From a virus, in the IMG/VR virus record IMGVR_UViG_3300030450_001276, positions 17,740 through 40,486 of that record: DNA of 22,747 nucleotides. One strand, 5' to 3'. Positions 6,366-21,755 of the stretch are shown here, piece by piece; the stretch's first letter is position 1; the number at the start of each line of letters is the position of its first letter. The position numbers and the translations under genes were made by a program. The notes under the pieces were generated by a model that searched no databases, was not told the DNA's origin, and saw nothing but the letters and a program-made list of their open reading frames with translations.

Positions 6366-7227
6366 GACTTTAGATACTTTAGTTGAAGATATTAATAGTG
6401 TATTAACAGACATATCATCAGGAATTAAACCTGATGTAAAAGAAGAACAGTTAGATAAGTTCTTAAACAATACTAAGTTAGCTTTACTTGATTGGCTTGA
6501 GCCTCGTAAGAGTTCAGGTAAAGGTTTAAGAATGTCTGTGATTGGTAGACCTGCTCGACAACTTTGGTATGATAATCATATCGAAAGAGAGACAGAAATA
6601 CATGACCCTTCTACCCAATTAAAATTTTTATATGGTCATATACTAGAACATTTACTTTTATTCTTGGTTGAATTATCAGGACACGAAGTAACTGCACAAC
6701 AAAAGAAAGTTCTTGTTGAAGATGTTAATGGTCATATGGATTGTAAGATTGACGGAGAAGTTGTTGATGTTAAGTCAGCTTCACCAATGTCATTTAAGAA
6801 ATTTAAGAATGGTACTTTATATGAAGATGACCCATTCGGATATGTTGCCCAACTCGCAGGGTATGAACACAACGAACCAAGTAATAATGGTGGGTTGTTT
6901 GCAGTAAATAAATCATCAGGTGAGATTGCATTGTTTAGACCTGATGAACTAATGAAACCAAATGCAGAAAAATTAATTAAAGATTTAAAGGAGAAACTAA
7001 AAGCTAATGAACCACCTGAGAAATGTTATCAACCGATTCCTCACGATAAGACTGGAAACTTCAAGCTTCCTATTGGGTGTGTGTACTGTCCTCATAAGTT
7101 TATTTGTCATGGGGATTCTAATGACGGCGACGGACTTAGAGTATTTAAATATGCAAACACAAATATATTCATGACAACGGTAGTTAACAAACCTAAAGTT
7201 GAAGAGATAACAGAAAGGTATAAGTAA
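6322..7227 (+). CDS. RecB/Cas4-type PD-(D/E)XK exonuclease with a cysteine cluster
   Basis: The 301-aa protein shows a RecB/Cas4-like nuclease core: GHILEH (His106, Glu109), GHMD (Asp140), VVDVKS (Asp149, Lys151) and the QxxxY motif (Gln177, Tyr181). Four cysteines follow at 235, 253, 256 and 262 (C-x2-C-x5-C at the end), like the iron-sulfur knuckle of Cas4 and AddB. It probably degrades host DNA or processes ends for recombination, the role of the gp6 exonuclease in T7. The start at 6322 overlaps the polymerase end by 44 nt and lacks a strong ribosome-binding site; the GTG at 6337 is a possible later start. The nuclease core begins well downstream, so either start keeps it complete. Confidence 0.88.
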   Translation: MENIKVETTGKKHTKTLDTLVEDINSVLTDISSGIKPDVKEEQLDKFLNNTKLALLDWLEPRKSSGKGLRMSVIGRPARQLWYDNHIERETEIHDPSTQLKFLYGHILEHLLLFLVELSGHEVTAQQKKVLVEDVNGHMDCKIDGEVVDVKSASPMSFKKFKNGTLYEDDPFGYVAQLAGYEHNEPSNNGGLFAVNKSSGEIALFRPDELMKPNAEKLIKDLKEKLKANEPPEKCYQPIPHDKTGNFKLPIGCVYCPHKFICHGDSNDGDGLRVFKYANTNIFMTTVVNKPKVEEITERYK

Positions 7228-7460
7228 TGTATTTTATAATCACGGCAATGTTATTCTTTAGTAGTACTGACCAAGTTATATATACTCAGTATGATAAAGC
7301 TACATTCGATTCTTCCAACACTTGTCAAGAATTTTTGTTCCAGAATAAGGTACAGTTATTAAAAGAACTTTTTGCAGAGCATAATAAGAATGATGATATG
7401 AAAGGATTTGAATTCTTTTGTGAAAATAGATATATAATATTAGAGGATGTTCACTTATGA
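7227..7460 (+). CDS. Small exported two-cysteine protein A (77 aa)
   Basis: The N-terminus is hydrophobic (YFIITAMLFF, residues 2-11), which could be a short signal or anchor, and is followed by a polar domain with only two cysteines, Cys33 and Cys65. The middle reads FDSSNTCQEFLFQN. The same pattern appears in the protein at 11305 (FSTEASCVEYLSQN, with a second Cys 38 residues on), so the two are probably paralogues. A pair of cysteines after an export-type N-terminus suggests a disulfide in the periplasm. Its first base is shared with the exonuclease stop (TAATG), and its end overlaps the next gene. The function is unknown; envelope modification or superinfection exclusion would fit. Confidence 0.65.
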   Translation: MYFIITAMLFFSSTDQVIYTQYDKATFDSSNTCQEFLFQNKVQLLKELFAEHNKNDDMKGFEFFCENRYIILEDVHL

Positions 7461-7768
7461 ATCGAAAAAAAATAAAAGTATTAAGAAGAAAAGCTAAAAA
7501 GATATTAGTAGAATGGTTGAAGTCTTTACTTCCTGAAGAAGAACAAGACAAAGTTAATGTCAATAATATCTTACAGCTAATGCCAAAGCAAACTCATTAT
7601 ATAAATGAGTTCCAATTATACTTAAGTGCTTGGTCATTTAAATGGGTAATGAAAAAATTAAAAAGAAATCCAGAGTGGACTTTTGAAGAAATAAATAATA
7701 GTGCTGGCCCAAGTAAGAGACAGCTAAGAAGACAGAAGATGATTGACGATGGTCCAATACCGCTCTAA
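7457..7768 (+). CDS. Basic protein of unknown function next to endonuclease I (103 aa)
   Basis: A highly basic start (MNRKKIKVLRRKAKKILVEWLKSLL) is followed by a Trp-containing segment (YLSAWSFKWVMKKLKRNPEWTFEEI) and a second basic patch (GPSKRQLRRQK). The charge suggests nucleic-acid binding. The ATG overlaps the previous stop as ATGA, and the end overlaps the endonuclease start by 26 nt, so the pair is tightly coupled. I know of no function for it; a partner of the endonuclease or of recombination is the natural guess from position. Confidence 0.65.
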   Translation: MNRKKIKVLRRKAKKILVEWLKSLLPEEEQDKVNVNNILQLMPKQTHYINEFQLYLSAWSFKWVMKKLKRNPEWTFEEINNSAGPSKRQLRRQKMIDDGPIPL

Positions 7769-8111
7769 ATTTGAGAAGACAGTTGTCTCTGGTCTTCGCA
7801 AGAAAAAAATAAAATATAAGTATGAAGAGTATGTTGTTAAGTTTATTCAACCTGCTGTTGATAGAACATATCTTCCTGATTTATATTTTCCAAAGACAGA
7901 CATCTTCGTAGAATTGAAAGGTGTTTTAAAATTAGAAGACAGAAAAAAACATTTGTGGATACAAGACCAAACAGATTATGATATTCGTTTTTGTTTCATG
8001 AATGCAAATAATAAAATAAGAAAAGGTTCAAAGACAAGCTATATTAATTGGTGTGAAGCTAATGATTTTTTATGGTGCGAAAAAGAAATACCTTTAGATT
8101 GGATGAAGTAA
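7743..8111 (+). CDS. T7-type endonuclease I, Holliday-junction resolvase
   Basis: The protein lines up by eye with T7 gp3: YRSKFEK at the front, then KIKYKYEEY, TYLPDLYFP, IFVELKG, DRKKHLWI, DIRFCF and KGSKTSYINWCE. The catalytic set of this PD-(D/E)XK nuclease is present: Glu11, Asp46 (in LPD), Glu57 and Lys59 (in VELKG). At 122 aa it is slightly shorter than gp3 (149 aa), mostly at the ends. It cuts four-way and branched junctions as a dimer, which resolves replication and recombination intermediates and helps break down host DNA. The start lies inside the preceding gene; the Met at codon 3 is an alternative start. Confidence 0.95.
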   Translation: MTMVQYRSKFEKTVVSGLRKKKIKYKYEEYVVKFIQPAVDRTYLPDLYFPKTDIFVELKGVLKLEDRKKHLWIQDQTDYDIRFCFMNANNKIRKGSKTSYINWCEANDFLWCEKEIPLDWMK

Positions 8112-8362
8112 TGAAGATAACTAAAGAAAATGCATACATTATATTAACACCTAATACACCAGGCAAAGGTGATGTAGGATTAGAAATGATAAACTATACT
8201 GATGACCCTAGTATAGATACATTAACTTATGGAATTAGATGGTTAGTCACAGAAAATCCAGAGTTGATTTATTATATAGGAGCAAGAGAAATGGAATACG
8301 AAGTAATAAAAAAAATAAAGAAAGGAACTAAACCAAATGACAATGAACCGAGTTTACACTGA
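8111..8362 (+). CDS. Small protein of unknown function (83 aa)
   Basis: I place the start at 8111, where ATG overlaps the endonuclease stop by one base (TAATG), the pattern used across this operon. An in-frame ATG at 8072 would add 13 codons deep inside the endonuclease gene and is less likely. The product is mixed alpha/beta in appearance (NAYIILTPNTPGKGDVGLEMINYTDD, LTYGIRWLV, ELIYYIGAREMEYEVIKKIKKG) and has no membrane segment or known motif. It overlaps the next gene by 26 nt. Confidence 0.6.
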   Translation: MKITKENAYIILTPNTPGKGDVGLEMINYTDDPSIDTLTYGIRWLVTENPELIYYIGAREMEYEVIKKIKKGTKPNDNEPSLH

Positions 8363-8642
8363 TGATAAAATTATAGAGATAGTAGATAAAGTAAGAGATA
8401 TTGTTTCTATAGATAGAGAAAACACACATGGAAATAAAAAGATTAATCATGATAACATTGCAAAGATGTGGTCAGCATATCTTGACCAAGAGATTAAAGG
8501 ACTTGATGTTGCATTAATGATGGTGTTATTAAAGACTGCACGAACAAAAGCAGGAAACCATAACCCAGATGATTATATAGATATGGCAGGATATAGTGTC
8601 ATAGCAGGAGAATTAGCGGAAGGAGAAAATAACAATGACTAA
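8337..8642 (+). CDS. DUF6378-like phage protein, possible nucleotide-pool function
   Basis: The 101-aa, all-helical protein has the pattern I associate with DUF6378: an R-x-NTHGNKKINHDNIAKMWSAYL stretch, then DVALMMVLLKTAR, then HNPDDYIDMAGYSVIAGEL. The ordered acidic and His residues and the DDYIDMAGY helix recall all-alpha NTP pyrophosphatases of the MazG type, so a nucleotide-related role is possible. It lies directly before, and overlaps, the ribonucleotide reductase gene, which supports a nucleotide link. It could start at codon 1 or codon 3 (ATGACAATG). The family call is from memory of the motif order and needs a profile search. Confidence 0.65.
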   Translation: MTMNRVYTDDKIIEIVDKVRDIVSIDRENTHGNKKINHDNIAKMWSAYLDQEIKGLDVALMMVLLKTARTKAGNHNPDDYIDMAGYSVIAGELAEGENNND

Positions 8643-10569
8643 TACCAACTATCTACCAACAACTTATCAACAATTTATTCATGCATCTAGGTATGCAAGA
8701 TTTATAGATGAAGAAAAGAGAAGAGAAAGTTGGGATGAAACTGTGAGTAGATACTTTAATTTTATGGAGGAACATTTAAAAGAAACTCATAAGTATACTT
8801 TAACAAAAGAATTAAGACAACAACTAGAAGAACAAGTATTAAGTCTAGGTGTCATGCCATCAATGAGGTCTTTAATGACTGCAGGAAATGCTCTTAAAAG
8901 AGACCATACATCAGGATATAACTGTAGTTATCTTCCTATTAATGATGTTAGAAGTTTTGATGAAATTATGTACATTCTTATGTGCGGAACTGGTGTAGGA
9001 TTTTCTGTTGAGAGAGATTATGTAGAAGAGTTACCAATCATAGCTGAAGAATTTGAGGATAGTGATACTGTTGTTGTAGTACAAGATAGCAGAACTGGTT
9101 GGGCAAAATCTTTAAGAGAATTACTTGCCATGCTTTATAGTGGTCAAGTACCAAAGATAGATGTAACAAGAATAAGACCTGCAGGTGCAAGACTTAAAAC
9201 ATTTGGTGGCCGTGCAAGTGGGCCTCAACCTCTTGTAGATTTATTTGACTTTGCGATTACAACATTTAAAAACGCCGCAGGTAGAAAACTTGACGCTCTT
9301 GAGTGTCATGATTTAGTTTGTAAGATAGGAGAAGTTGTAGTTGTAGGTGGTGTTCGTAGGTCAGCTTTAATATCACTTAGTAATATACAAGATGATAGAC
9401 TTCGTAATGCTAAGAGTGGACAATGGTGGTTAACTGACCCACAAAGAGCATTATCAAATAACTCTGCTTGTTATTCTCGTACACCAGACATGGCTTTATA
9501 TATGTCTGAATGGAAATCTCTTTATGATAGTAAGTCAGGTGAGAGAGGAATCTTTAATAGACAAGCCGCCAAAGATAAAGCATCAGAGAATGGTCGTCGT
9601 GATAGTGAACATGAATTTGGAACTAATCCTTGTTCAGAAATTATACTTAGACCTTATCAATTCTGTAATTTAACTGAGGTAGTTGTTCGTGCTTCTGATA
9701 CAGAGAAATCTTTAAAAGAGAAAATTAGATTGGCAACAATACTTGGAACATTTCAATCAACTCTTACTGATTTTAAATACATTAGAAAGATATGGAAACA
9801 AAATACGGAAGATGAAAGACTACTAGGTGTATCACTAACTGGTATTATGGATTCAACTTTAACAAACAATCCACAAAAGAATTTTCTTTCTGGATTAAAA
9901 CAAGTTGCTATTGATACTAATAAAGAGTTAGCAAAGAAACTAAAGATACCACAATCTACAGCTATTACTTGTGTAAAACCTAGCGGTACAGTAAGTCAAT
10001 TAGTTGATAGTGCTTCTGGAATTCATACAAGACACAGTCCTTATTATATTAGAACTGTTAGGTGTGATAAGAAAGACCCTCTTACACAGTTGATGATGGA
10101 TAAAGGAATACCTAACGAACCTGATATAACTAAACCAGATTCTGTTACAGTATTTTCTTTTCCTACTGCTTCTCCAAAGAATTCTATTACTAGACATTCA
10201 ATGGGAGCTATAGAACAATTAAAAATGTGGAAGACATATCAAGATGAATGGTGTGAGCACAAACCTTCTTGTACAGTAAGTGTAAAGGAAGAGGAGTGGA
10301 TGTCTGTTGGAGCTTGGGTGTATGAAAACTTTGATAAAATATCTGGCATAAGTTTTCTTCCGTATACAGACCATGTATATAAACAAGCTCCTTACCAAGA
10401 TATAACAAGAGAAGAATATCTTGAATGGAAAAAGAAAATGCCACAGACTATAGATTTTTCTTTACTAAAGGATTATGAATCTGAAGATAACACAACAGGT
10501 TCTCAAGAACTCGCATGTACTGGCGGAGTTTGTGAGTTAGTTGATGTATCTGCTCCTCAAGAGGATTAG
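8635..10569 (+). CDS. nrdJ: Adenosylcobalamin-dependent class II ribonucleotide reductase
   Basis: The 644-aa enzyme makes deoxyribonucleotides from ribonucleotides, with a radical generated from coenzyme B12. The active-site block NPCSEI contains Asn331, Cys333 (thiyl radical site) and Glu335. The redox partners are Cys97 in GYNCSYLPI and Cys344 in QFCNL. Typical loops are CGTGVGFSVERDYV, GGRASGPQPL, GGVRRSALISL, GVSLTGIMDS and CVKPSGTVSQLVDSASGIHTRHSPYY. The C-terminal ACTGGVCE carries Cys628 and Cys633, with the same spacing as the shuttle cysteines of the monomeric Lactobacillus enzyme (739 aa); the match of loops suggests that monomeric branch. No small subunit gene follows, as expected for class II. 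It overlaps the upstream gene by 8 nt. The host would have to supply cobalamin. Confidence 0.95.
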   Translation: MTNTNYLPTTYQQFIHASRYARFIDEEKRRESWDETVSRYFNFMEEHLKETHKYTLTKELRQQLEEQVLSLGVMPSMRSLMTAGNALKRDHTSGYNCSYLPINDVRSFDEIMYILMCGTGVGFSVERDYVEELPIIAEEFEDSDTVVVVQDSRTGWAKSLRELLAMLYSGQVPKIDVTRIRPAGARLKTFGGRASGPQPLVDLFDFAITTFKNAAGRKLDALECHDLVCKIGEVVVVGGVRRSALISLSNIQDDRLRNAKSGQWWLTDPQRALSNNSACYSRTPDMALYMSEWKSLYDSKSGERGIFNRQAAKDKASENGRRDSEHEFGTNPCSEIILRPYQFCNLTEVVVRASDTEKSLKEKIRLATILGTFQSTLTDFKYIRKIWKQNTEDERLLGVSLTGIMDSTLTNNPQKNFLSGLKQVAIDTNKELAKKLKIPQSTAITCVKPSGTVSQLVDSASGIHTRHSPYYIRTVRCDKKDPLTQLMMDKGIPNEPDITKPDSVTVFSFPTASPKNSITRHSMGAIEQLKMWKTYQDEWCEHKPSCTVSVKEEEWMSVGAWVYENFDKISGISFLPYTDHVYKQAPYQDITREEYLEWKKKMPQTIDFSLLKDYESEDNTTGSQELACTGGVCELVDVSAPQED

Positions 10570-10812: not shown

Positions 10813-10923
10813 ATGAAAAATTTACTTTATAAAATTTTTCTAGAAGGTTGGAATTTTAACCCACCACCTGAGAAAATAGATAAAGCAATTATTATTTTAT
10901 TATTATTGGTATTACTATTATGA
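10813..10923 (+). CDS. 36-aa tail-anchored membrane peptide
   Basis: ATG at 10813 follows the previous stop without a gap, and TGA at 10921-10923 overlaps the next ATG (ATGA). The first 24 residues are polar with a PPP turn (GWNFNPPPEKIDK), and the last 11 are almost pure Ile/Leu/Val (AIIILLLLVLLL). It would be anchored by its C-terminus. The hydrophobic stretch is short for a full membrane span, so it could be peripheral. There is no ribosome-binding site of its own. Function unknown. Confidence 0.5.
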   Translation: MKNLLYKIFLEGWNFNPPPEKIDKAIIILLLLVLLL

Positions 10924-11300
10924 AAGCATTTGTATACGGAACATTAAAAAAAGGAAAGAGACTTCATTCTATTATTGAAGATGCAACCTTTATAGGAACA
11001 CACGAAACTAAACAATCTTTTGATATAAAAGATTATGCTAATGGTGCTTTCCCTATTATTTTTTTACCTAAAGATGATGGTTATAAAATAAAAGGTGAGG
11101 TATATGATTTGGATAAACAAACTATGAGTTATGTTTGGAGTTTAGAAACAGGTGCAGGATATTCTCCTGTTGAAATAGATGTGGGTGAGCATACCGCAGT
11201 TGCTTTTATATATCCACAACTTGCTGAGCATTCATCAGTAAGTGTTACTGATAATTATATAGTTACTAATAATAATATTAAAGAGTGGACTGGAGGGTGA
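10920..11300 (+). CDS. Gamma-glutamylcyclotransferase-like (AIG2/GGCT fold) protein
   Basis: The 126-aa protein shows the hallmarks of the GGCT/AIG2-like fold: the N-terminal substrate loop FVYGTLKKG (Tyr6, Gly7, Thr8, Leu9), a central strand KIKGEVYDLD, and the conserved acid in WSLETGAGYSP (Glu76), where the catalytic Glu of this family sits. Family members release 5-oxoproline from gamma-glutamyl amines or glutathione, or undo gamma-glutamyl tags. In a phage it may act on glutathione or on a modified protein or peptide; the substrate cannot be deduced. Similar genes occur in other large and marine phages. It overlaps the 36-aa peptide by 4 nt. Confidence 0.85.
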   Translation: MKAFVYGTLKKGKRLHSIIEDATFIGTHETKQSFDIKDYANGAFPIIFLPKDDGYKIKGEVYDLDKQTMSYVWSLETGAGYSPVEIDVGEHTAVAFIYPQLAEHSSVSVTDNYIVTNNNIKEWTGG

Positions 11301-12157: not shown

Positions 12158-12592
12158 TTATTTTATTTTAATTGTCTTACTCTTCTTTTCTTCAGGAAGA
12201 TTAAGTTTCATCTTAACTAAAAGGATACCGTCTTTAAACTCTGCATCCTTTACTTCAAGATGTTCTGCAAGAGTCCATCGTCTAGTGAAAGCTCTCTTGG
12301 CTATTCCTTTATGAAGGAAACTTTCTTCCTCATCTTTAGTCTCCTTAGAAGCTGAGACAGTTAAGACATCTTCTTTAACTTCAACATCGATATCATCTTT
12401 AGTGAATCCTGCTAAAGCCATTTCCAATTCATAACCATCAGTACCAATCTTACGAATATTGTAAGGTGGGTAACTCGGTGCTTCAAAGTTTGACATTGAA
12501 GACAGTTGGTCAAAGATAGAATCAAAGCCGACTGTTAAGTTTTTAAATGGGTCTGCATTAAATACCAGACCTCTTGTTGTAGGTATATTCAT
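12158..12592 (-). CDS. hsp20: Hsp20 small heat-shock protein (IbpA-like)
   Basis: The 144-aa protein is a complete alpha-crystallin chaperone. YPPYNI opens the crystallin domain (residues about 41-134), followed by YELEMALAGFTKDDIDVEV, LTVSASKE, FLHKGIAKRAFTRRWTLAEHLEV and the conserved GILLVKMKLNLPEE. The IxI motif (Ile141-Lys-Ile143) that caps neighbouring dimers is at the C-terminus. The N-terminal FDSIFDQL resembles bacterial IbpA. It holds unfolded proteins in a refoldable state without ATP. Hsp20 genes are common in marine T4-like phages and lie there among structural genes; here too the gene sits between virion proteins and the lysis genes, which suggests help in folding the large virion proteins. 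GGAG lies eight bases before the start. Confidence 0.96.
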   Translation of the reverse strand: MNIPTTRGLVFNADPFKNLTVGFDSIFDQLSSMSNFEAPSYPPYNIRKIGTDGYELEMALAGFTKDDIDVEVKEDVLTVSASKETKDEEESFLHKGIAKRAFTRRWTLAEHLEVKDAEFKDGILLVKMKLNLPEEKKSKTIKIK

Positions 12593-12633: not shown

Positions 12634-12664
12634 TTTAAGAAGCTATACCTTAAGCCTTCTTAAA
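12634..12664 (-). repeat. Inverted repeat spanning the transglycosylase stop codon
   Basis: TTTAAGAAG (12634-12642) and CTTCTTAAA (12656-12664) are perfect 9-bp arms with a 13-nt loop. The stop codon of the transglycosylase lies in the structure. No U-run follows on the minus strand, so this is at best an RNA-processing or weak pausing hairpin before Hsp20. The rest of 12593-12649 holds an AAC/CAA-rich leader with no promoter that I can see. Confidence 0.35.
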
Positions 12665-14383
12665 TCTTTTTTTGTCTAGCAATCCACCCTTTTTAAAGCT
12701 AAGCCCAATACTAGTACTAATCTTTCCATCTTCATTAATAGTTATTTTTGGCTTTGCATCTAGATAGTTATCTCCTACAAAACCTGTAACATCTGTTCCT
12801 ATTCCTATATTAAATCCTTCTTCAGTATTATAACCTCCTACAACATTTAGACCATCTGTCCAACCACCAACTTGTGTCCAACCACTCATTGGTGTATTAG
12901 TATAATTAGCTCCCCAACCTGTCTTATATGATGTTTCTATTCCAACATTACTATTATCTAAATTATAAGAAGCTTCTGTAGAAGTCATGTCTGTGTGATA
13001 ACCTGCTTTAATTGAAGTATCACTATCAGTAAAGTTTCCTTCTTTTACACTACTAAATGGAGTTACACTTTCGAGACCAAGTGTCCCAAAATTACCTGCA
13101 ATATCCCAACCAGTCTCAATTCCACCAACATATCCTTCGTTAGTTACAGTAGCATATGTACCAATAGGGTCATAACTAATATCGGCAGGGCTTAAATTAG
13201 AGTATGTTTTCCACCCTAAAAATTCTGGAGTATAATTTTTTTTATCTTTTTTTTCTTCCTCGACACCTATTTTAGAAGTCTTTGCAGTAGTACCTATATG
13301 AGGATTTGCTGGAGTTTTACTTACTCCAAAATCAGGTTGACTTGCATCTGCTCCTCCACCCTTTCCCTGATTAGAACTACTAGAACTACTAGAACTACTA
13401 GAACTACTAGAACTACCTTGGTCAGCTCCACCTCCGTGTGGGTTGCCACCTTGCGATGAACTACTTTTACTTTTACTTTTACCTCTTCCTCTATCTCTTG
13501 GAGGATAAGCACGAATACCAGACTTAGTCATTTCTCCTGTTCCACCTGCTTTCTTTAACATGTCCGCTTCGTTAGGAGTAATGTAAGCAAGTTGATGTCC
13601 TTTAGGAGCAGTAGCATTTAAAACATTAGCCATTTGTTTTTGTATAGCAATACTAGTTTCTGTAGGTTTTACCATAGCTCCCCCTAAATTCATCTCTGGT
13701 CTTTTAACTGGGGTTATTACTTTTTCTTTTGTTGGTTTTTTAACTGGCACTACATTAGGACCTAGAACTTTATTAACATAATTCAAAGTTTCTTCAGGTA
13801 AACTATTTCTTTTAATCCCCTCTTTATCAATCCAGTAACCTTTTTTCTTAAACCTTGTGTACCTTGAAGGGCCAAAGTTGTAGGCGGCAACAGCATCTCT
13901 TTCATTTCCATAATGTTTAACTAATCCTTTTATATATGAAGTTCCAAACTCAATATTTTTTTCTGGATTTTTTAAATCTTCTTCAGTTAAAGGAATAAAA
14001 TTTTTCTCACTTATCTTTTTTCCTTTGTTATCTATAATATATCCTGGATAAGCACTAGCAGTTCCTGGCATAATCTGCATTAATCCTATAGCTCCTTTAT
14101 CTGAGGGAGGAGTATTTGGATTAGAACTACTTTCAACTTCAATAATTCTTTGGATTAAAGGGTCATCAGACCAAACACGAAAACCATCTTCATACCCTCC
14201 ACTATTATATCCCTTCCTTCCTAAGAATTCTGCAAATGTAAATCGTGGATTACCTCTTTGATTTGAAGTAGAGTATTTTCCTACGTCTGAACTTTCAGTG
14301 TTCTTTAAACCATATGCTTTATTGCCCACTTGAAAGAACTGGGATAAAAGTTTCTTTGTTGACATTGGGTTATCGTACCACAT
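12650..14383 (-). CDS. Virion-associated lytic transglycosylase (SLT domain, 577 aa)
   Basis: Residues about 73-180 form an SLT-type transglycosylase domain: the catalytic Glu84 in EVESSSNP, then GAIGLMQIMPGTA (100-109), EFGTSYIKGLVKHYG and AAYNFGPSRY (166-175). The domain cleaves peptidoglycan glycan strands to leave anhydro-muramic ends. A low-complexity Gly/Ser linker (residues about 300-350), including 14 consecutive serines, leads to a repetitive Gly/Tyr/Thr-rich C-terminal region that looks beta-stranded (GVETSYKTGW, VGGYNTEEGFNIGIG). It sits two bases after the giant internal virion protein and before Hsp20, so it is probably packaged and used to make a hole in the cell wall during DNA entry; use at lysis cannot be excluded. 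A Met at codon 7 is an alternative start. Confidence 0.85.
   Translation of the reverse strand: MWYDNPMSTKKLLSQFFQVGNKAYGLKNTESSDVGKYSTSNQRGNPRFTFAEFLGRKGYNSGGYEDGFRVWSDDPLIQRIIEVESSSNPNTPPSDKGAIGLMQIMPGTASAYPGYIIDNKGKKISEKNFIPLTEEDLKNPEKNIEFGTSYIKGLVKHYGNERDAVAAYNFGPSRYTRFKKKGYWIDKEGIKRNSLPEETLNYVNKVLGPNVVPVKKPTKEKVITPVKRPEMNLGGAMVKPTETSIAIQKQMANVLNATAPKGHQLAYITPNEADMLKKAGGTGEMTKSGIRAYPPRDRGRGKSKSKSSSSQGGNPHGGGADQGSSSSSSSSSSSSSSNQGKGGGADASQPDFGVSKTPANPHIGTTAKTSKIGVEEEKKDKKNYTPEFLGWKTYSNLSPADISYDPIGTYATVTNEGYVGGIETGWDIAGNFGTLGLESVTPFSSVKEGNFTDSDTSIKAGYHTDMTSTEASYNLDNSNVGIETSYKTGWGANYTNTPMSGWTQVGGWTDGLNVVGGYNTEEGFNIGIGTDVTGFVGDNYLDAKPKITINEDGKISTSIGLSFKKGGLLDKKRFKKA
13373..13417 (-). repeat. 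Five tandem 9-bp repeats encoding poly-Ser
   Basis: Five units of AGAACTACT (plus strand; the last unit ends in C) lie head to tail. On the minus strand they read AGT AGT TCT and encode the 14-serine run of the transglycosylase linker (residues about 323-337). Such a pure repeat can change length by slippage without breaking the frame. Confidence 0.9.
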
Positions 14384-14384
14384 A

Positions 14385-17300
14385 TTAAACCTTCTTTATC
14401 ATTACTGCACTACCATTTATTTTATAACTACTAGGAATTTTAGATATTTCAAATCCATCTCCTAGTATTGATTTTATATAATCTAGTAGTTCATTTATTT
14501 TAAATCCTTTTTGAAAAGTTTCGTTGTCACCTTTCTTCATAACAAAACCATCATTCAATTTTCTTAATGGGTTTCCTTCTATTATAGGTCTAGTATTTAT
14601 AATTGCTACTCCATCATCAGCTAATAATTTTCCAATATTTTTTACAACCTCTGCTCTATTAGATGGATTAGGAATAACATTTAATACAGCATGACTTATA
14701 ATAGCTTTAAATTTATTTTTACCTTCTACTTCTATTAAAGTTTTTTCATTTTTATATTCAGGTACTTTTCCTTTATAAGTAATGTTATTGTGTTTATAAG
14801 AAAGAGCTTCTAAATCTTTATTTGCTTTTGCAAATGGTTCAAAACTTTTTGTCTTACCTAATTTTTCTAAAACTCTAGAGCCTAATCCTAAACCAGAACC
14901 ATAATCTAATATATCTATGTTTTCAAAATTTCTAAAGTTAATTCCTTTTTCTTCTAAGAAAGGAACATACTTCTCATAAGTTGCTACTGTATTTTTTATC
15001 TGAGTAGCTCCAGGATTAATTTTTTTCGTAGCTACTTTAGTAACTCCTTTAGTTGATGCTTTACTTATAGCTTTACCAACTAACCCTCCTAAAGCAAAAC
15101 CTATTTCTGAACCAGAACCAAAACCTAAAGGAATACCAAAACCTAAATCAAAATCAGGATTTAATGGGAAATCTCTTTCCTCTACAGGGTCATAGTTAAA
15201 CCACCATAGTTCTTCAGGAAAAGCATTCTCCATCATTCTTCTATATTCAGGAGGTATCATCCAAAGATTTGTGTTTTCCATCCACTCTAAACCTATATCT
15301 GCCAAAGGCCTACCTGATGCTACTTCTTTAGGTAAACTGAAAAGACTTGTTATAGTTTCAGCACCAGGAAAAAAGTTAAGAGGTTCTCTAGGATTATAAG
15401 TAGCATAACTATATACATTACCAGCTAACCATCCTGGATTACCTGACAACATAATACCATCAGCTAGAGCATCTTGTGGTGATGAATCTTCCCATTGAAA
15501 TCCAGTCTTAACCCATCTTCTAAGTTGATGTAAAGCTGTAAATACAGGTATAGTCATTAACATTTTTACTGCTAATCTAGCTTCACCATTTTCTATTCTT
15601 TGTAGTAGTGCATTTGTTTGAGAAGACTTTGCTTGTGCCCAAGAACTAAACTGTCCTAATAATCTTAATGTAGGATTTTTTGATTGAGTAAATAACATTC
15701 TATTTCCAACAGCAGGAATGATAGCATCTCTATCCATAGCAACTCTTCCTGAATATGACATTAATCTACTTCCTAAAGTATCTGCCTTTGCTTCTTTCCA
15801 GTTTTTAAAAGTACCAAACTTTAGAATCTCATTTAGATTAGTAATTCTACCATCAGCATCAGTCTTAGCTATACCCATCTTTATAGCTCTATCATATAAT
15901 CTTCTAGCCTTTCTACCTACAATATTCACATAAGGTAGAGCAGCCAATTCTCCTAAACTTCTTCCATTAACTTCTGTAAATCTTACAATATCTCTAGCAA
16001 GATTTAAACCATCAATAGCTCCAAAGTTAAAAGCAGTTCTTCTTCCTAATTCAGTAACATCTTGTAAACCTACAAGTTTAAAAAAATGTTCATTACCTTT
16101 AGATAAAGCTCTTAATAAAAGGTTTGGGTCACCTTCTTCAATAAAAGCACTAGAAGATAATTCTCTTAAAGCTTTCTTTGCTACATTATCATGATGTAAA
16201 TATAAAACATCTGCTGGTTGGTCTGTAATCTTACGAGGTTTAGTAGTAAAAGGAAGTCTTCTTGGCATATTAACAGTAGCTGCTGTTCCTTGCATCCAAG
16301 TTTTAAAGTAATAACTATTTTGGAATGTTTGAACAATATCACCAAGGTTTGCTAATGAGACTGTACCCATTAATCTTGTGTTAGTTAAGAAAGAAACAAG
16401 AGCTGCAGTAGTTCTTTGAATTCTACCTGCCTCAGTTCCATGTCTACCAAAGTAAGCATGAACTCCATCTATCATAGCTCTTATATCATTCTGTTCTCCT
16501 TTAGAAGTATTTATAAATCCTTGGTTTAAATACTGCTTACGCAAATTATCTTTTAAACGTATTAAACCTTCTCCATTTTTTCCAAATACTTTAGAAAATT
16601 CTACAGATTTTGTACTTTTATTTACCATATTTAAAAGAACTGCTGATACATCATTTACAAAATATTTACTTAAAGGCCCTTCTACTAAATCATAACTACC
16701 TTGTAACATTCTATCTAGTTCTACATGTTCAAGAATGTCAGTACTAGTACTTTTTGGAAGGATTTTCAGATGTTCTTGTATAGGTGTTTTAAAAGTAAGA
16801 GTAGCATGTCCTTTTTTATCTACTCCTTGTGTTATTAAATTCTCATAATCATTTTTCATAACACCATGATAATACTTTGTAGCTGCTCCTTTAAAATCTG
16901 ATAATTTTTTATTGTACTTCTTACCTTTATTTTTTATATCAGACCTAAAATTTTTCTTAGCTTTATTATATAAAACTTTTTGTATATCTTTTATAAATTG
17001 TTCTTTATTCTTTGAAATAAAAACTTTGTTATGAACACGAGGAAAATAATTTTCTATTATTTCTTTAGGTGATATACCACCTTGTATTAAATAATTCTTA
17101 TGTACTTCTAAAAATTGATTAATTCTTTTAGATAAAGCTTGAGAATCTTTTACAATAGTTGTACCATTTACTTTATCTAAATTTTTTAATTCTTTTAATG
17201 TAGTTGTTCTAAAAGTTTTTCCTCCATCGTCAGTAAGAGTTATAATACTTTTACTTTTTGTTCCTCCTCTAACAAGAGACATTGCAATTTGTTGAATCTG

Positions 17301-19034
17301 TGGACTATTATAAGCGATATCATCAATAACACCCACCATTTTATCATCTCCAAATAATAAGACTTTAAAATTATCTAGTGCTTTACCTGCATTTTGTTCT
17401 ACACTTGATGTCCCACCTTTATAACTCTGAAATAGAAGATTAGAAAATCTTCCCATGACAGACCCTCTACCTTCTAATCTTGTAGCAAGAGTCATACCTG
17501 ACCAAGTTTTTAATTTCCACATTCCGTAATGAGCGTGTTCTCTAATAGCTTTACCAAAAACATTATCAGCTACTTTTTTAGGTAAATACTTCGGACCTTG
17601 AATAAGTAGACGATAACCACCCATAAGCATAGCTCCACCTATAGCCCAGTTAAGCATGTCTTCGTTATCATCTCCAGCGAGGACACCAAACATTCCACCA
17701 ACCACTCCTCCAAAAGTAGGATAAACAGTGGATGCAAGAATACCTCTTATAACTTTATCACTTAAAGCAGCAGCTCCTCCTTTAGCATATAGTTGTTTAG
17801 TTATTTCTCCTATATACTCTCCACCTGCAGATGTTAAAGCTTTTATAGCATTATCATATTCATCAGCTACTTGACTCTGTAATGTTTTTTGTGCTTTAGA
17901 TAATTCTACTCTACGATTTATAAGTAAATCTTTCTTTTTTAAACCAGTATCTTTAAAATTTTCTATCCATTTTTTTTCTAACTTAGTTTTCTTATCAACT
18001 AAGCTATCAAGAGTTTTATAATTTTTTAAAGTAGGTTTAAAATTTTTAATTTGTTTTGAAAGTTGATTAAAAGTTTTAGTGTCTGTTTTAGCATCATCAA
18101 ATAATTTTAACATTCTTTGATATCTTTGAAACTCAAGAGTATTATCTTGTAGTGCTTGTATCGCAGCTTTTACTGAAGGTGTTGTAGCTATCTTTTGAAT
18201 CTTATCTAAAGATAAATTTGAAGTAATATTTCTTTCATCTATTTTATTTATAGCAGCTTTTATCACATCATCAGATATAGCTTTATTAGAAAACAAAGTA
18301 GGGAATGCTTTATTAAGACCCATTCTTCCTGCAGTTCCTATACCTGGGATAGCAGCGCTTAAGGCAGCTCCTAAACCTACTGATGTTCCCCACATTTTTG
18401 GGTCAATCCTACCTTCTTGGTCAAGCATTCTTATAGCCATGTCAGCACCAGCAGTTGCTCCTCCTAATCCAGCTAAAGCACTTCCTGATTGTAACATAGA
18501 TTTCCCATACTGTCCAGACTTCCAAGCTAATGAACCAGCTTTATAAGCTTTACCTCCCCAACCAATCCAAGGAATCCAAAGAATAGGGTCAGCCATAATT
18601 GTAGCCATCTGTCCGCCTATTACAGCGATATCACTATCATATTTTCCATCTTTAAATTCAGGAAACTCTTCCCAAACTTCTTGCATATGTTGATTCCAGG
18701 CATCTCTACTTCTTTCTTCATAAGTATCTCCTGTAGTTCCCCAGCCTGTAGCAGCAGTAAAGAATCTATAAGCACTACCAAGAGTCATGCTTTCTTTTGC
18801 CATACCATACTGTGCTTTTCTTGTTTCATCTGGTGCATCACCAACAAAAGAAGAAACATTAGATGGTTGTTGAGATGAATAACTAGGAATAGTAAGAGTA
18901 TTCTTTTGTCCTAACCATTCCTCATATTCTGAATCAGTATCAGGAGTAGTAGGAGTAGTAGGAATAGTAAGAGTACTCTTTTGTCCTAACCATTCCTCAT
19001 ATTCTGAAGATGTTTGTTGAATATTATCTGTCAT
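14385..19034 (-). CDS. Giant internal virion protein with C-terminal methyltransferase (1549 aa)
   Basis: This is the largest gene here. The N-terminus has two copies of SEYEEWLGQK-TLTIP. The body contains Gly/Ala-rich hydrophobic stretches (DPILWIPWIGWGGKAYKAG, FGGVVGGMFGVLAG) and long helical regions, as in the ejected core proteins of podophages (T7 gp15/gp16 role: forming a trans-envelope channel). From about residue 1339 it carries a class I SAM-dependent methyltransferase: ATQIKNTVATYEKY, motif I ILDYGSGLGLGS (Asp1377 onward), an acidic EPFAKANKD, motif IV-like ISHAVLNVIPNPSNRAEVV (about 1447) and LLADDGVAIINTR. This layout resembles methyltransferases found at the ends of large phage polyvalent proteins. 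It would enter the host with the DNA. The target is unknown; the DPPY/NPPY motif of DNA amino-methylases is absent. Confidence 0.8.
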   Translation of the reverse strand: MTDNIQQTSSEYEEWLGQKSTLTIPTTPTTPDTDSEYEEWLGQKNTLTIPSYSSQQPSNVSSFVGDAPDETRKAQYGMAKESMTLGSAYRFFTAATGWGTTGDTYEERSRDAWNQHMQEVWEEFPEFKDGKYDSDIAVIGGQMATIMADPILWIPWIGWGGKAYKAGSLAWKSGQYGKSMLQSGSALAGLGGATAGADMAIRMLDQEGRIDPKMWGTSVGLGAALSAAIPGIGTAGRMGLNKAFPTLFSNKAISDDVIKAAINKIDERNITSNLSLDKIQKIATTPSVKAAIQALQDNTLEFQRYQRMLKLFDDAKTDTKTFNQLSKQIKNFKPTLKNYKTLDSLVDKKTKLEKKWIENFKDTGLKKKDLLINRRVELSKAQKTLQSQVADEYDNAIKALTSAGGEYIGEITKQLYAKGGAAALSDKVIRGILASTVYPTFGGVVGGMFGVLAGDDNEDMLNWAIGGAMLMGGYRLLIQGPKYLPKKVADNVFGKAIREHAHYGMWKLKTWSGMTLATRLEGRGSVMGRFSNLLFQSYKGGTSSVEQNAGKALDNFKVLLFGDDKMVGVIDDIAYNSPQIQQIAMSLVRGGTKSKSIITLTDDGGKTFRTTTLKELKNLDKVNGTTIVKDSQALSKRINQFLEVHKNYLIQGGISPKEIIENYFPRVHNKVFISKNKEQFIKDIQKVLYNKAKKNFRSDIKNKGKKYNKKLSDFKGAATKYYHGVMKNDYENLITQGVDKKGHATLTFKTPIQEHLKILPKSTSTDILEHVELDRMLQGSYDLVEGPLSKYFVNDVSAVLLNMVNKSTKSVEFSKVFGKNGEGLIRLKDNLRKQYLNQGFINTSKGEQNDIRAMIDGVHAYFGRHGTEAGRIQRTTAALVSFLTNTRLMGTVSLANLGDIVQTFQNSYYFKTWMQGTAATVNMPRRLPFTTKPRKITDQPADVLYLHHDNVAKKALRELSSSAFIEEGDPNLLLRALSKGNEHFFKLVGLQDVTELGRRTAFNFGAIDGLNLARDIVRFTEVNGRSLGELAALPYVNIVGRKARRLYDRAIKMGIAKTDADGRITNLNEILKFGTFKNWKEAKADTLGSRLMSYSGRVAMDRDAIIPAVGNRMLFTQSKNPTLRLLGQFSSWAQAKSSQTNALLQRIENGEARLAVKMLMTIPVFTALHQLRRWVKTGFQWEDSSPQDALADGIMLSGNPGWLAGNVYSYATYNPREPLNFFPGAETITSLFSLPKEVASGRPLADIGLEWMENTNLWMIPPEYRRMMENAFPEELWWFNYDPVEERDFPLNPDFDLGFGIPLGFGSGSEIGFALGGLVGKAISKASTKGVTKVATKKINPGATQIKNTVATYEKYVPFLEEKGINFRNFENIDILDYGSGLGLGSRVLEKLGKTKSFEPFAKANKDLEALSYKHNNITYKGKVPEYKNEKTLIEVEGKNKFKAIISHAVLNVIPNPSNRAEVVKNIGKLLADDGVAIINTRPIIEGNPLRKLNDGFVMKKGDNETFQKGFKINELLDYIKSILGDGFEISKIPSSYKINGSAVMIKKV
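18886..19008 (-). repeat. 48-bp direct repeat, 75-bp period, in the giant virion gene
   Basis: The copies at 18886-18933 and 18961-19008 differ at a single base (18901 versus 18976), which changes Asn to Ser. They encode the duplicated SEYEEWLGQK[S/N]TLTIP near residues 9-50, separated by a TTP-repeat linker. The near-identity points to a recent duplication or gene conversion. Confidence 0.95.
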
Positions 19035-19042
19035 GATTATTT

Positions 19043-21142
19043 TTAAGCAATATCAAAGTTACTTAAATTAGTTGATAAAATTGATTTAGCAGTTTGGTCT
19101 GGAGTATTATCAGTTACTTTCTGAAGTTCAATTGAGTAAACTTTATAACCATACTCATTAGTATTTTCTACTACAACTGGTTTATATGTATCTCCTTCTA
19201 CTGTATTAAATTCTTGATTTATATCTATAGTTTTAGTTCCATCTTTAAATTTTGTAGCATTAATATCATTAACAGATACTTTTTTATTATTAAAAGTTTC
19301 TATAAATTTATTAGAAAGTAATCCTATACCTGATAACTCAGTGAGAGTATCCCAGTTTTGTCCAACTCCCATCCAAGGAGAACCTATCTTTTTAGTATTG
19401 GAATTGTAACTATACTTTTTATATGTTCCATCCTTATCTTCATCTATATACATTGGTGTATCTGCTGGAATAGTTTGTTTCTTTCCATCAATACTAACGA
19501 CTATACTACCATCTGCATTTTGTTTTACAAGCTTAGGAATTGAAGTAGAGTTAATTACTTGCTCTTCTGGAATAATTTCCTCTTCCTCTACTAATGGAGC
19601 TTGCTCTTCCTCTACTAATAGAGGTTGCTCTTCCTCTACTAATGGAGCTTCCTCTTCCTCTACTAATGGAGCTTGTTCTTCCTCTTTACTTTTACTAAAT
19701 AAATCTGTTAAAAGATTTGAAGAGGCAACTGCCATCATATTATTAAATGCATTACTAACATCACCATAATTAATAGGGTCCCAAATCTTTGCCCTATTCT
19801 CTTTCTGCCACTTTGCCGCAAGGTCTATTTCTAATTCATTTTGGAGAGCACTAAAAGCTGATACTACAGCAATACCTGCATCTATATCTTCTTGTGTAGC
19901 TAAAGATATTTTACCATCTTCTTGTACAGTAACGAGTGTATCATGTAATTTTTCTAAAGATTTATTATCAATTACATTTTGAGGAATTATTATTGGTCTT
20001 ACCTTAAAAGAATCTGCCCAGAATTTAAAGTTATCTACTTCAAATCGTACAGTTCTTCTATTAATATGTTGAATAGTCATATCTTTTACTGCATTTCCTG
20101 TCGCCAACGATTGGAAAGTCTCTAATGCGCTATCTGGGGTAAGCGTAGGAGCAAGATATATCTGTGTATAAAGTGCATCAAAAGAGTTTTTCATAAGAGG
20201 AAGTACTTGTTTATAATACTCCATTCCTAAAGGACTCATTCCTATCACTACTTTCTTACCCATAGACAGTTGTTCTTTATCATACTCAAATAAAGCATCC
20301 AATTCTTCTTGTGGCATATTTAAACTTCTTAGCATTATTTCCCTGATATTTGCATAGTCCTTTTCCGCAGACATTCCTGGCATTTGCCAAGCTAACCACT
20401 TATTCCAAGTTTCATCTAATCCAGGTACACTATCAATAAAAGCAGTAAAGTTTTCTTTTACTTCTTTAGAATTAAGATTAAAGCCTTCAATAGTACTTTC
20501 CACCTCTTCTGGTGTTTTATTCCAACTCCATTCAGTAGGAATTTCTCTATACTCTTTTAATTTATCTAGAGCATTGTTATTTCCTGTGCTTAAATCATCT
20601 TGAAGAGCTGCAAGAATCTTTGTTTCAGAAGCATTTTCTTTACCTAACCACCCACGAATTCTTTCTGTTAGAGGGCCTTGTAAATCTTCTGCTTTTACCA
20701 TAGCTTCATTATATTTTGTTTGGTCAAAAAATTCTCCCCACTTAGGAGCAACAGGTTCACTTAATCCTTTATATACATATTGTCCCTTTTCATTTTCTTC
20801 TACTTGACCTGAATAAAACTCTATAATTTTATTTCTAGAATCTTCATTACTTAACTCAGACCAACTAACACCATCATTTAAAGCTAACTGTTCAGCTATT
20901 TGAGTTTTAGTTGCATTACTACCTAAAGATTTAAGAGAGTTATTTATTTTATCATATCTATCTACTTCACTATAAAATCTATTTTCAGCTTGTCCATGTC
21001 TATTTACAGCAGTCATATAATCAAGTTTAAACTGCTCCATAATACGTTCACCTACATCATTAATTCTATCTGGTCTTGCTTTCTGGTCATCAACCAGCAT
21101 ACTAGAAAAAACATTAAGTGCATCTTTAGCTATATTACCCAT
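19043..21142 (-). CDS. Large late protein, probable internal virion or tail protein (699 aa)
   Basis: I recognise no enzyme motif. The first 180 residues are predicted helical and highly charged (RINDVGERIMEQFKLDYMTAVNRHGQ). The middle is mixed. Residues about 488-519 are four tandem copies of an acidic eight-residue unit (EEEQAPLV type) that must be a flexible spacer. The last 150 residues look strand-rich (IPKLVKQNADGSIVVSIDGKKQTIP). It is the first big gene upstream of the giant methyltransferase protein and two bases after the 203-aa gene, so it is probably part of the same virion or ejection assembly (T7 gp14/gp15-like position). Function by position only. GAGG lies just before the start. 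Confidence 0.65.
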   Translation of the reverse strand: MGNIAKDALNVFSSMLVDDQKARPDRINDVGERIMEQFKLDYMTAVNRHGQAENRFYSEVDRYDKINNSLKSLGSNATKTQIAEQLALNDGVSWSELSNEDSRNKIIEFYSGQVEENEKGQYVYKGLSEPVAPKWGEFFDQTKYNEAMVKAEDLQGPLTERIRGWLGKENASETKILAALQDDLSTGNNNALDKLKEYREIPTEWSWNKTPEEVESTIEGFNLNSKEVKENFTAFIDSVPGLDETWNKWLAWQMPGMSAEKDYANIREIMLRSLNMPQEELDALFEYDKEQLSMGKKVVIGMSPLGMEYYKQVLPLMKNSFDALYTQIYLAPTLTPDSALETFQSLATGNAVKDMTIQHINRRTVRFEVDNFKFWADSFKVRPIIIPQNVIDNKSLEKLHDTLVTVQEDGKISLATQEDIDAGIAVVSAFSALQNELEIDLAAKWQKENRAKIWDPINYGDVSNAFNNMMAVASSNLLTDLFSKSKEEEQAPLVEEEEAPLVEEEQPLLVEEEQAPLVEEEEIIPEEQVINSTSIPKLVKQNADGSIVVSIDGKKQTIPADTPMYIDEDKDGTYKKYSYNSNTKKIGSPWMGVGQNWDTLTELSGIGLLSNKFIETFNNKKVSVNDINATKFKDGTKTIDINQEFNTVEGDTYKPVVVENTNEYGYKVYSIELQKVTDNTPDQTAKSILSTNLSNFDIA
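19585..19680 (-). repeat. Four tandem 24-bp repeats encoding EEEQAPLV units
   Basis: Four head-to-tail 24-bp units (19585-19608, 19609-19632, 19633-19656, 19657-19680) differ at a few bases each. They encode an acidic, proline-containing linker in the 699-aa protein. In-frame expansion or loss of units is likely between related phages. Confidence 0.93.
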
Positions 21143-21143
21143 A

Positions 21144-21755
21144 TTATACCTCTTCCTTTTCTTCTTCTATTCCTGCTTCTTCTGCAGTAGGCAACTCTTT
21201 TACTTTTGATAATAAAGAAGGAGCTACACTAGTACGTCTTATTTGTTCTGGTTTTAATTTATTAAATTTCATAGACTCATCCATATATGTTTCAGTATCT
21301 TCTTCTGAAGGTTCATCTGAATCTTCTCCTTCATAAATAACTGGTTCTATTCCTGCTTGTTCTGCCATTGCAATTAAAAGATACATGACTGGTTCAATTA
21401 ATAATAACATTAAATCAGGATTAATCTTTCCTTTAGATACAGAAGTATAAAGAAGTACTTGAGCTATTTCTGTAATAGGTGTTTTATCTAGAAATTTTAT
21501 TAATAGTTCAATATATCTATCTCTATCTTCTCCAAGTTGTACAAATAAATCTTCCATGAAAGGTTGAACTTCTGTATACTCAGGAGGAGTTTCCCAAGGA
21601 TACTTTTGTTCTGGACTAGTAGTTAATGATTCTCCTGGAGTAGGAGCATCAAACGGATTAATTGAAGTACCATCTTTTAGAGGTATCATTCCTGCAGCTT
21701 CAGGTTGAGCCTGTTGGTTTAGTTGTGCAGGTATGTTTACGTTTTCTTCTTCCAT
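21144..21755 (-). CDS. Acidic late protein, probable virion assembly component (203 aa)
   Basis: The N-terminal third is disordered and rich in Pro and Gln (NIPAQLNQQAQPEAAG, NPFDAPTPGESLTTSPEQKYPWETPPEY). A helical core follows (MEDLFVQLGEDRDRYIELLIKFL, PDLMLLLIEPVMYLLIAMAEQAG), then a very acidic tail (GEDSDEPSEEDTETYMDES, EEAGIEEEKEEV). The hydrophobic helix around residues 110-130 is short and followed by polar residues, so packing into a helical bundle is more likely than a membrane span. It lies directly upstream of the 699-aa gene. I recognise no family; a scaffold-like or adaptor-like virion role is a positional guess. AAAGGA precedes the start by ten bases. Confidence 0.65.
   Translation of the reverse strand: MEEENVNIPAQLNQQAQPEAAGMIPLKDGTSINPFDAPTPGESLTTSPEQKYPWETPPEYTEVQPFMEDLFVQLGEDRDRYIELLIKFLDKTPITEIAQVLLYTSVSKGKINPDLMLLLIEPVMYLLIAMAEQAGIEPVIYEGEDSDEPSEEDTETYMDESMKFNKLKPEQIRRTSVAPSLLSKVKELPTAEEAGIEEEKEEV

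Follow-up and report, generated by a model that had tools for sequence, protein, structure and literature searches.

Genes at the Locus

We analyzed a 22,747-nt stretch of viral DNA (herein the window), corresponding to bases 17740-40486 of a 40.5-kb IMG/VR virus record. It encodes a predicted giant virion protein of 1549 aa (14385..19034; minus strand, as for all features given below in this two-dot form) in a frame that is uninterrupted throughout. The protein comprises N-terminal peptide repeats, an α-helical body and a C-terminal methyltransferase. The body (aa 60-1310; 15105..18857) is assigned as an HTVC103P-type internal/structural virion protein from a phrog_342 match, its homologs and an all-α AlphaFold2 (AF2) model; the class I SAM-methyltransferase domain (aa 1339-1549; 14385..15020) is assigned from Pfam, NCBIfam, AF2, a PDB fold search and a family alignment.

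Two genes precede the giant ORF and are placed by order and size alone: a 203-aa gene (21144..21755) in the gp14-like position and a 699-aa gene (19043..21142) in the gp15-like position. The order and sizes (203-699-1549 aa) resemble T7 gp14-gp15-gp16; neither smaller protein matches a Pfam or PHROG family, and the 699-aa protein has no tblastn match in phage records. The gene after the giant ORF encodes a 577-aa lytic transglycosylase (12650..14383; Pfam SLT, 2.1e-20), and the virion operon ends with an Hsp20-family small heat-shock protein gene (12158..12592; phrog_432, 2.6e-43). The record also contains TerL, portal and major head genes, all on the strand of the giant ORF; we infer operon continuity across the unjoined contig ends from HTVC103P.

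Several features of the neighboring genes stand on their own. The Hsp20 gene also comes after the giant gene in HTVC103P, HTVC104P and HTVC115P; in this phage it closes the ejection-protein cluster, and a chaperone for large internal proteins is a natural guess. The transglycosylase protein has a long low-complexity stretch rich in serine, and its C terminus (GGLLDKKR) is similar to that of the HTVC115P giant protein, a likeness that suggests exchange of end pieces between the two genes. A 126-aa ORF at 10920-11300 looks by eye like a gamma-glutamylcyclotransferase; an NCBIfam search with it gave no match. A “toxin-activating lysine-acyltransferase” is annotated in HTVC103P (L002, 24547-24996) and HTVC115P (L004, 3394-3843), lying in the early region of one of these phages and in the structural region of the other.

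The C-Terminal Domain Is Predicted to Be an Intact Methyltransferase

A reading made from the sequence alone had placed a SAM-methyltransferase on the end of the giant protein. Its coordinates are exact (residue 1339 starts at base 15020), and every motif that it quoted (ILDYGSGLGLGS, EPFAKANKD, ISHAVLNVIPNPSNRAEVV and LLADDGVAIINTR) is present in the ORF. Pfam Methyltransf_23 matches residues 1368-1481 (E = 5.4e-5, with a score slightly below the gathering score), and NCBIfam TIGR04096 matches at 1e-4 when the domain is searched alone. A sequence search of the PDB with the single domain found nothing, and a search with the domain profile gave weak matches to varied methyltransferases and nothing stronger.

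The last 229 residues were modeled with AlphaFold2 using a 49-member alignment as input (pLDDT 92.5, pTM 0.87). Comparison of this model with the PDB using Foldseek returned 485 matches at E ≤ 0.001, headed by METTL6 (1.5e-8), glycine N-methyltransferase (GNMT) and Trm9. The evidence for a methyltransferase domain lies far outside what chance would give. The top structural matches are enzymes that methylate tRNA, proteins or small molecules, and DNA methyltransferases are not among them. As the matches are too diverse, we rejected naming a substrate class from them.

The conserved positions of the family can be followed along the domain. An N-terminal signature, T....T..TY.K (aa 1344-1355; 14970..15005), is 90-98% conserved in the 49 members. 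It is followed by SAM-binding motif I, ILDYGSGLGLGS (aa 1375-1386; 14877..14912), in which D1377, G1379, G1381 and G1383 are invariant, and by EPF (14832..14840), whose acidic E1399 after strand 2 is the expected SAM-ribose binder and is 98% conserved; both the glycine loop and the acidic residue are thus kept. The motif IV region reads VLNV (aa 1450-1453; 14676..14687), with N1452 invariant. Beyond it lie a TR motif (aa 1481-1482; 14589..14594) with invariant R1482 and a second family signature, FQKGFxxxEL (aa 1507-1516; 14487..14516), in which Q, K, E and L are invariant and which is a candidate substrate-side motif. In total 13 columns are invariant across the 49 members, including D1377, G1379, G1381, G1383, N1452, R1460, R1482, Q1508, K1509 and E1515, and the 1549-aa protein keeps 13/13. 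Relatives compared in 210 pairs have a median dN/dS of 0.26, indicating purifying selection among them.

The sequence-only reading had allowed that a Rossmann methyltransferase fold might be lacking, or that relatives might have lost the SAM-binding residues. We found a confident class I fold, with its PDB matches, and no loss in any of the family-invariant columns; on both counts its claim of a real and intact domain holds. From sequence and model together, the domain is very probably an intact enzyme. The Pfam score just under the gathering threshold would also suit a catalytically inert domain that plugs the core as a structural or SAM-binding element. Such a plug is highly improbable, however, given that 49 diverse members, standalone copies included, share the SAM-binding residues and further putative active-site residues without change, and that the relatives are under purifying selection.

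The (D/N/S)PP(Y/F/W) catalytic motif is absent from 49/49 members, with the VLNV region in its place, so that the lack of a DPPY/NPPY-type motif first noticed in this one protein is true of all members aligned. The missing motif and the fold neighbors speak against an ordinary DNA methyltransferase acting on adenine or on cytosine N4, and identity with a DarB-type adenine methyltransferase was rejected on the missing catalytic motif.

A Phage-Restricted Family

Homologs of the domain at 31-47% identity occur in many phages. By tblastn, 12 of 50,697 phage records match: the cultured pelagiphages HTVC103P and HTVC104P; Roseobacter phages CRP-3 and CRP-738 and one Rhodobacteraceae phage; six Mycobacterium phage records (Myrna, Bigswole, Phabba and ScoobyDoobyDoo); and Microcystis phage MJing1. 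A further 311 contigs with relatives were found in IMG/VR. The 84,980 prokaryotic species genomes gave at least four matches, a lower bound because the scan used one peptide pattern, and all four are on MAG contigs. Plasmids gave one weak match in 72,556 records, on which count a plasmid-borne origin was rejected. As judged from these searches, the family is phage-restricted, occurring almost only in phages. A family lacking the DNA-methyltransferase motif is conserved in phages infecting SAR11, Roseobacter, Microcystis and Mycobacterium; the invariant residues outside the SAM site (N1452, R1460, R1482, Q1508, K1509 and E1515) suggest one common target.

By profile similarity, the named cellular family closest to the domain is TIGR04096, the DNA-phosphorothioation-associated putative methyltransferase, which matches 42/49 members. 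The phage members nonetheless align to its N-terminal methyltransferase part only, and their scores (21.2 bits for the domain in the window; 38.5 bits, 5.7e-10, for the best phage member tested) are far under the curated cut-off of 150 bits over ∼478 aa; membership was rejected. No description of the function of TIGR04096 was found in the literature searched.

The Carrier Resembles Internal Virion Proteins of Pelagiphages

The body is homologous to HTVC103P gp52, HTVC104P gp54 and HTVC115P gp40, and phrog_342 (“internal virion protein with endolysin domain”) matches its residues 137-328 (E = 6.7e-9). Searches with 34 body homologs gave 24 matches to virion-structural or internal-virion PHROGs (e.g., phrog_6958, phrog_684 and phrog_342), a sum over families with double counts left in. 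The internal-virion-protein character that had been ascribed to the body is backed by these matches. A search of IMG/VR with the body alone returned 94 relatives.

The AF2 model of the body is all-α (pLDDT 65); for this low-confidence model no PDB entry, T7 gp16 included, matched with E < 0.1, and sequence searches of the PDB with the body gave nothing significant. A T7 gp16 fold for the body found no support in these results, and because the PDB searches were empty the gp16 analogy is drawn from the PHROG matches and the gene order. On homology, we assign the carrier as an internal/structural virion protein of HTVC103P-type (SAR11) pelagiphages. The predicted role of the methyltransferase as virion-associated cargo is well supported by genomics, and packaging of the domain in the virion is highly likely.

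The C Terminus of the Carrier Is an Exchangeable Slot

We surveyed 80 IMG/VR relatives found by the body alone. The region after the body varies among them; the methyltransferase is present in 20, in two of these as a separate neighboring ORF. In a tally of 79 relatives (the 80-locus scan and the three HTVC phages, with a few left out), the methyltransferase occurs in 21, eight of which also have a recognized wall hydrolase in the body ORF; 34 have a wall hydrolase alone, 3 an HTVC115P-type tail and 21 no domain modeled. Occupants other than the methyltransferase are Glucosaminidase, Phage_lysozyme, Pesticin, Phage_lysozyme2 and SLT. The 1549-aa protein itself has one recognized enzyme domain.

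On a tree of the 80 bodies, the methyltransferase must have been gained or lost at least 14 times, and well-supported branches force every one of these changes. HTVC115P has the body without the methyltransferase; the domain order is methyltransferase then lysozyme in HTVC103P and lysozyme then methyltransferase in the contig L119. Two contigs (L111 and L112) have nearly identical bodies and methyltransferases that are 94% identical; their DNA alignment ends just upstream of the methyltransferase. SLT is fused to the body in two relatives (L100 and L101) and is the separate gene immediately downstream of the giant ORF in the window. These comparisons point to a C terminus that is an exchangeable cargo slot for the methyltransferase, wall hydrolases or both.

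In the tail (6318-8897) of one body relative without the present methyltransferase family (L167), a further and divergent methyltransferase-like segment can be made out by eye (VLEFGAGPK...VINASNVLNV); a Pfam search of this tail returned no methyltransferase.

Other Carriers and Standalone Copies

The same methyltransferase is found on other proteins. On one contig (L063) a T7-like gene run encodes a tail tube, a gp14-like internal virion protein (phrog_805), a 780-aa protein at the gp15 position, a 1553-aa protein and a tail fiber. The 1553-aa protein has a SAP domain and the methyltransferase; it matches phrog_6651 (“internal virion protein”) at 2.5e-48, and a marine-phage protein annotated as “internal virion protein D” matches its N-terminal region. 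By these matches it is an internal virion protein unrelated to the HTVC103P-type body. Elsewhere, LPD23 adjoins the methyltransferase in a 3554-aa protein (L089), and a Rhodobacteraceae phage protein has ART-PolyVal and DUF7178 alongside it; across relatives, the domain is paired with lysozyme, glucosaminidase, ART-PolyVal, LPD23 or DUF7178. The LPD23 and ART-PolyVal neighbors uphold one half of the link to polyvalent proteins that the sequence-only reading had drawn; the other half falls, as the methyltransferase described in those proteins is a DarB-like adenine enzyme of a different family. We consider virion association, rather than a single backbone, to be the common factor of the predicted carriers.

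DUF7178 (PF23802) recurs next to the methyltransferase in large phage proteins (L009, L007, L077 and L005). It has a conserved VTVDTH motif and is without a solved relative; a by-eye likeness to helix-hairpin-helix glycosylases was unsupported in a PDB profile search.

On freshwater-type contigs the methyltransferase is a gene of its own between TerL and portal, and standalone homologs are also placed among late structural genes. Such copies beside portal genes could act during assembly, which counts against a role at entry. More generally, the enzyme might work in the producing cell, during assembly or packaging, where it would methylate, e.g., a virion protein or the packaged DNA and be carried along only through its fusion; the position of the gene in the late operon and the certain presence of SAM in the producing cell agree with this, as do the standalone homologs. 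The recurrent fusion to internal virion proteins and a slot shared with entry enzymes (wall hydrolases) nevertheless suggest a role at entry, and we consider action confined to the producing cell unlikely.

Peptide Repeats at the N Terminus

The giant proteins open with a short peptide in two or three copies, and each phage has a peptide sequence of its own: SEYEEWLGQKxTLTIP in the 1549-aa protein, LSLSNLEGV in HTVC103P and DVFSQFxxTE in HTVC104P. In the window, copy 1 is SEYEEWLGQKSTLTIP (aa 10-25; 18960..19007) and copy 2 is SEYEEWLGQKNTLTIP (aa 35-50; 18885..18932). The repeat beats 100 shuffles in 29/41 relatives. Several relatives have an extra copy in the C-terminal tail, including HTVC103P and HTVC104P (L002 and L003), L031, L038, L051 and L127, and this copy adjoins the methyltransferase in five of the six. 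The N-terminal repeat looks like a docking or packaging tag.

A Proposed Role at Genome Entry

We propose that the methyltransferase would be packaged together with the body, as cargo of the biggest internal virion protein of the phage, and would be ejected when infection begins, forming part of an envelope-spanning channel in the manner of T7 gp16 and N4 vRNAP. In the cytoplasm it would meet the SAM of the new host and, within the first minutes, methylate a single conserved type of target where the DNA enters. We put the probability of this combined reading (a predicted intact enzyme that is packaged, ejected and active early in the new host) at roughly 0.6. Ejection is likely by analogy with T7 gp16, whose N terminus carries a periplasmic transglycosylase and whose C-terminal part binds DNA and gets as far as the cytoplasm (PMC8954989), and with N4, in which the third ejection protein is an RNA polymerase (vRNAP) that takes the gp16 role and refolds in the cytoplasm (PMC12633501). 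Activity in the cytoplasm of the new host is, on the same analogy, somewhat favored.

Two points weigh on this reading. The low-confidence model of the body has no fold match to T7 gp16, and the body matches gp16-type families over a short stretch alone. Peptidoglycan hydrolases must act in the periplasm, from which SAM is absent; since the slot mostly holds such hydrolases, its cargo may stop there, without SAM. The methyltransferase would then either move on into the cytoplasm, be released, or act earlier, during assembly.

Under the entry reading, a metabolite is a less likely target than a nucleic acid or a protein at the entry site. The SAP domain fused to the methyltransferase in L063 and the kinship with TIGR04096 lean weakly toward a nucleic acid, which we hold as a tentative choice. 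A narrower form of this idea is an injected DNA methyltransferase that, like DarB, marks the incoming phage genome against restriction. The same SAP domain, the tie of the cellular kin to DNA phosphorothioation clusters and the binding of entering DNA by the C-terminal part of T7 gp16 (PMC8954989) would fit; but with (D/N/S)PP(Y/F/W) in 0/49 members, best structural matches that are not DNA methyltransferases, and neither the target-recognition domain nor the helicase of DarB (PMC5512222), such a protector is decidedly unlikely. A wider form, which we regard as doubtful, is that the phage-specific family is a general entry-stage effector, injected by diverse phages, ocean SAR11 podophages among them, on unrelated internal virion proteins and giving a new kind of methylation to the entering nucleic acid, or to a component of host defense or translation, before phage gene expression.

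Comparison with Known Systems

RNA polymerase, transglycosylase, DarB and ADP-ribosyltransferases are among the enzymes that phages inject. Injected enzymes and polyvalent proteins are already known (PMC5512222). What appears to be new is a methyltransferase family without the DNA-methyltransferase motif, on interchangeable virion slots, which was not found described in the papers searched. That literature, in which few subscription journals are covered, held no paper joining “internal virion protein” and “methyltransferase domain” and no description of the family itself; virion proteomics of Myrna gp97 or of HMO-2011-type phages was likewise not found there.

Among cellular enzymes TIGR04096 is the closest named kin, and it differs from the phage family in extent and score as set out above. 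Among virion proteins, the carrier is like T7 gp16 and other podophage ejection proteins (internal virion protein D) in having an associated transglycosylase and a body that matches phrog_342 over a short stretch, and it is by order and size the largest member of a putative three-gene internal-virion set. Unlike T7 gp16, the 1549-aa protein carries a methyltransferase, and its low-confidence body model gave no fold match; whereas T7 gp16 has its hydrolase at the N terminus, the wall hydrolase of the HTVC103P type is a separate gene or a C-terminal domain.

Polyvalent proteins bear enzymatic domains on large virion-associated proteins (Iyer et al. 2017, PMC5512222), and the present carriers may follow the same logic, some family members adjoining LPD23 or ART-PolyVal. 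In polyvalent proteins and in DarB from phage P1, the methyltransferase is of the EcoKI/TaqI-like kind: it acts on DNA adenine, has NPP(Y/F) and comes with a helicase (PMC5512222). Unlike DarB, the present family is UbiG/type-11-like and lacks NPP(Y/F), and no SWI2/SNF2 helicase was found in the window or the homologs scanned. The N4 vRNAP (PMC12633501) is close in concept, as an enzyme delivered with the ejectosome for the first minutes of infection. Enzyme and backbone are unrelated to those of N4, however, and the proposed cargo here is a small, exchangeable C-terminal domain.
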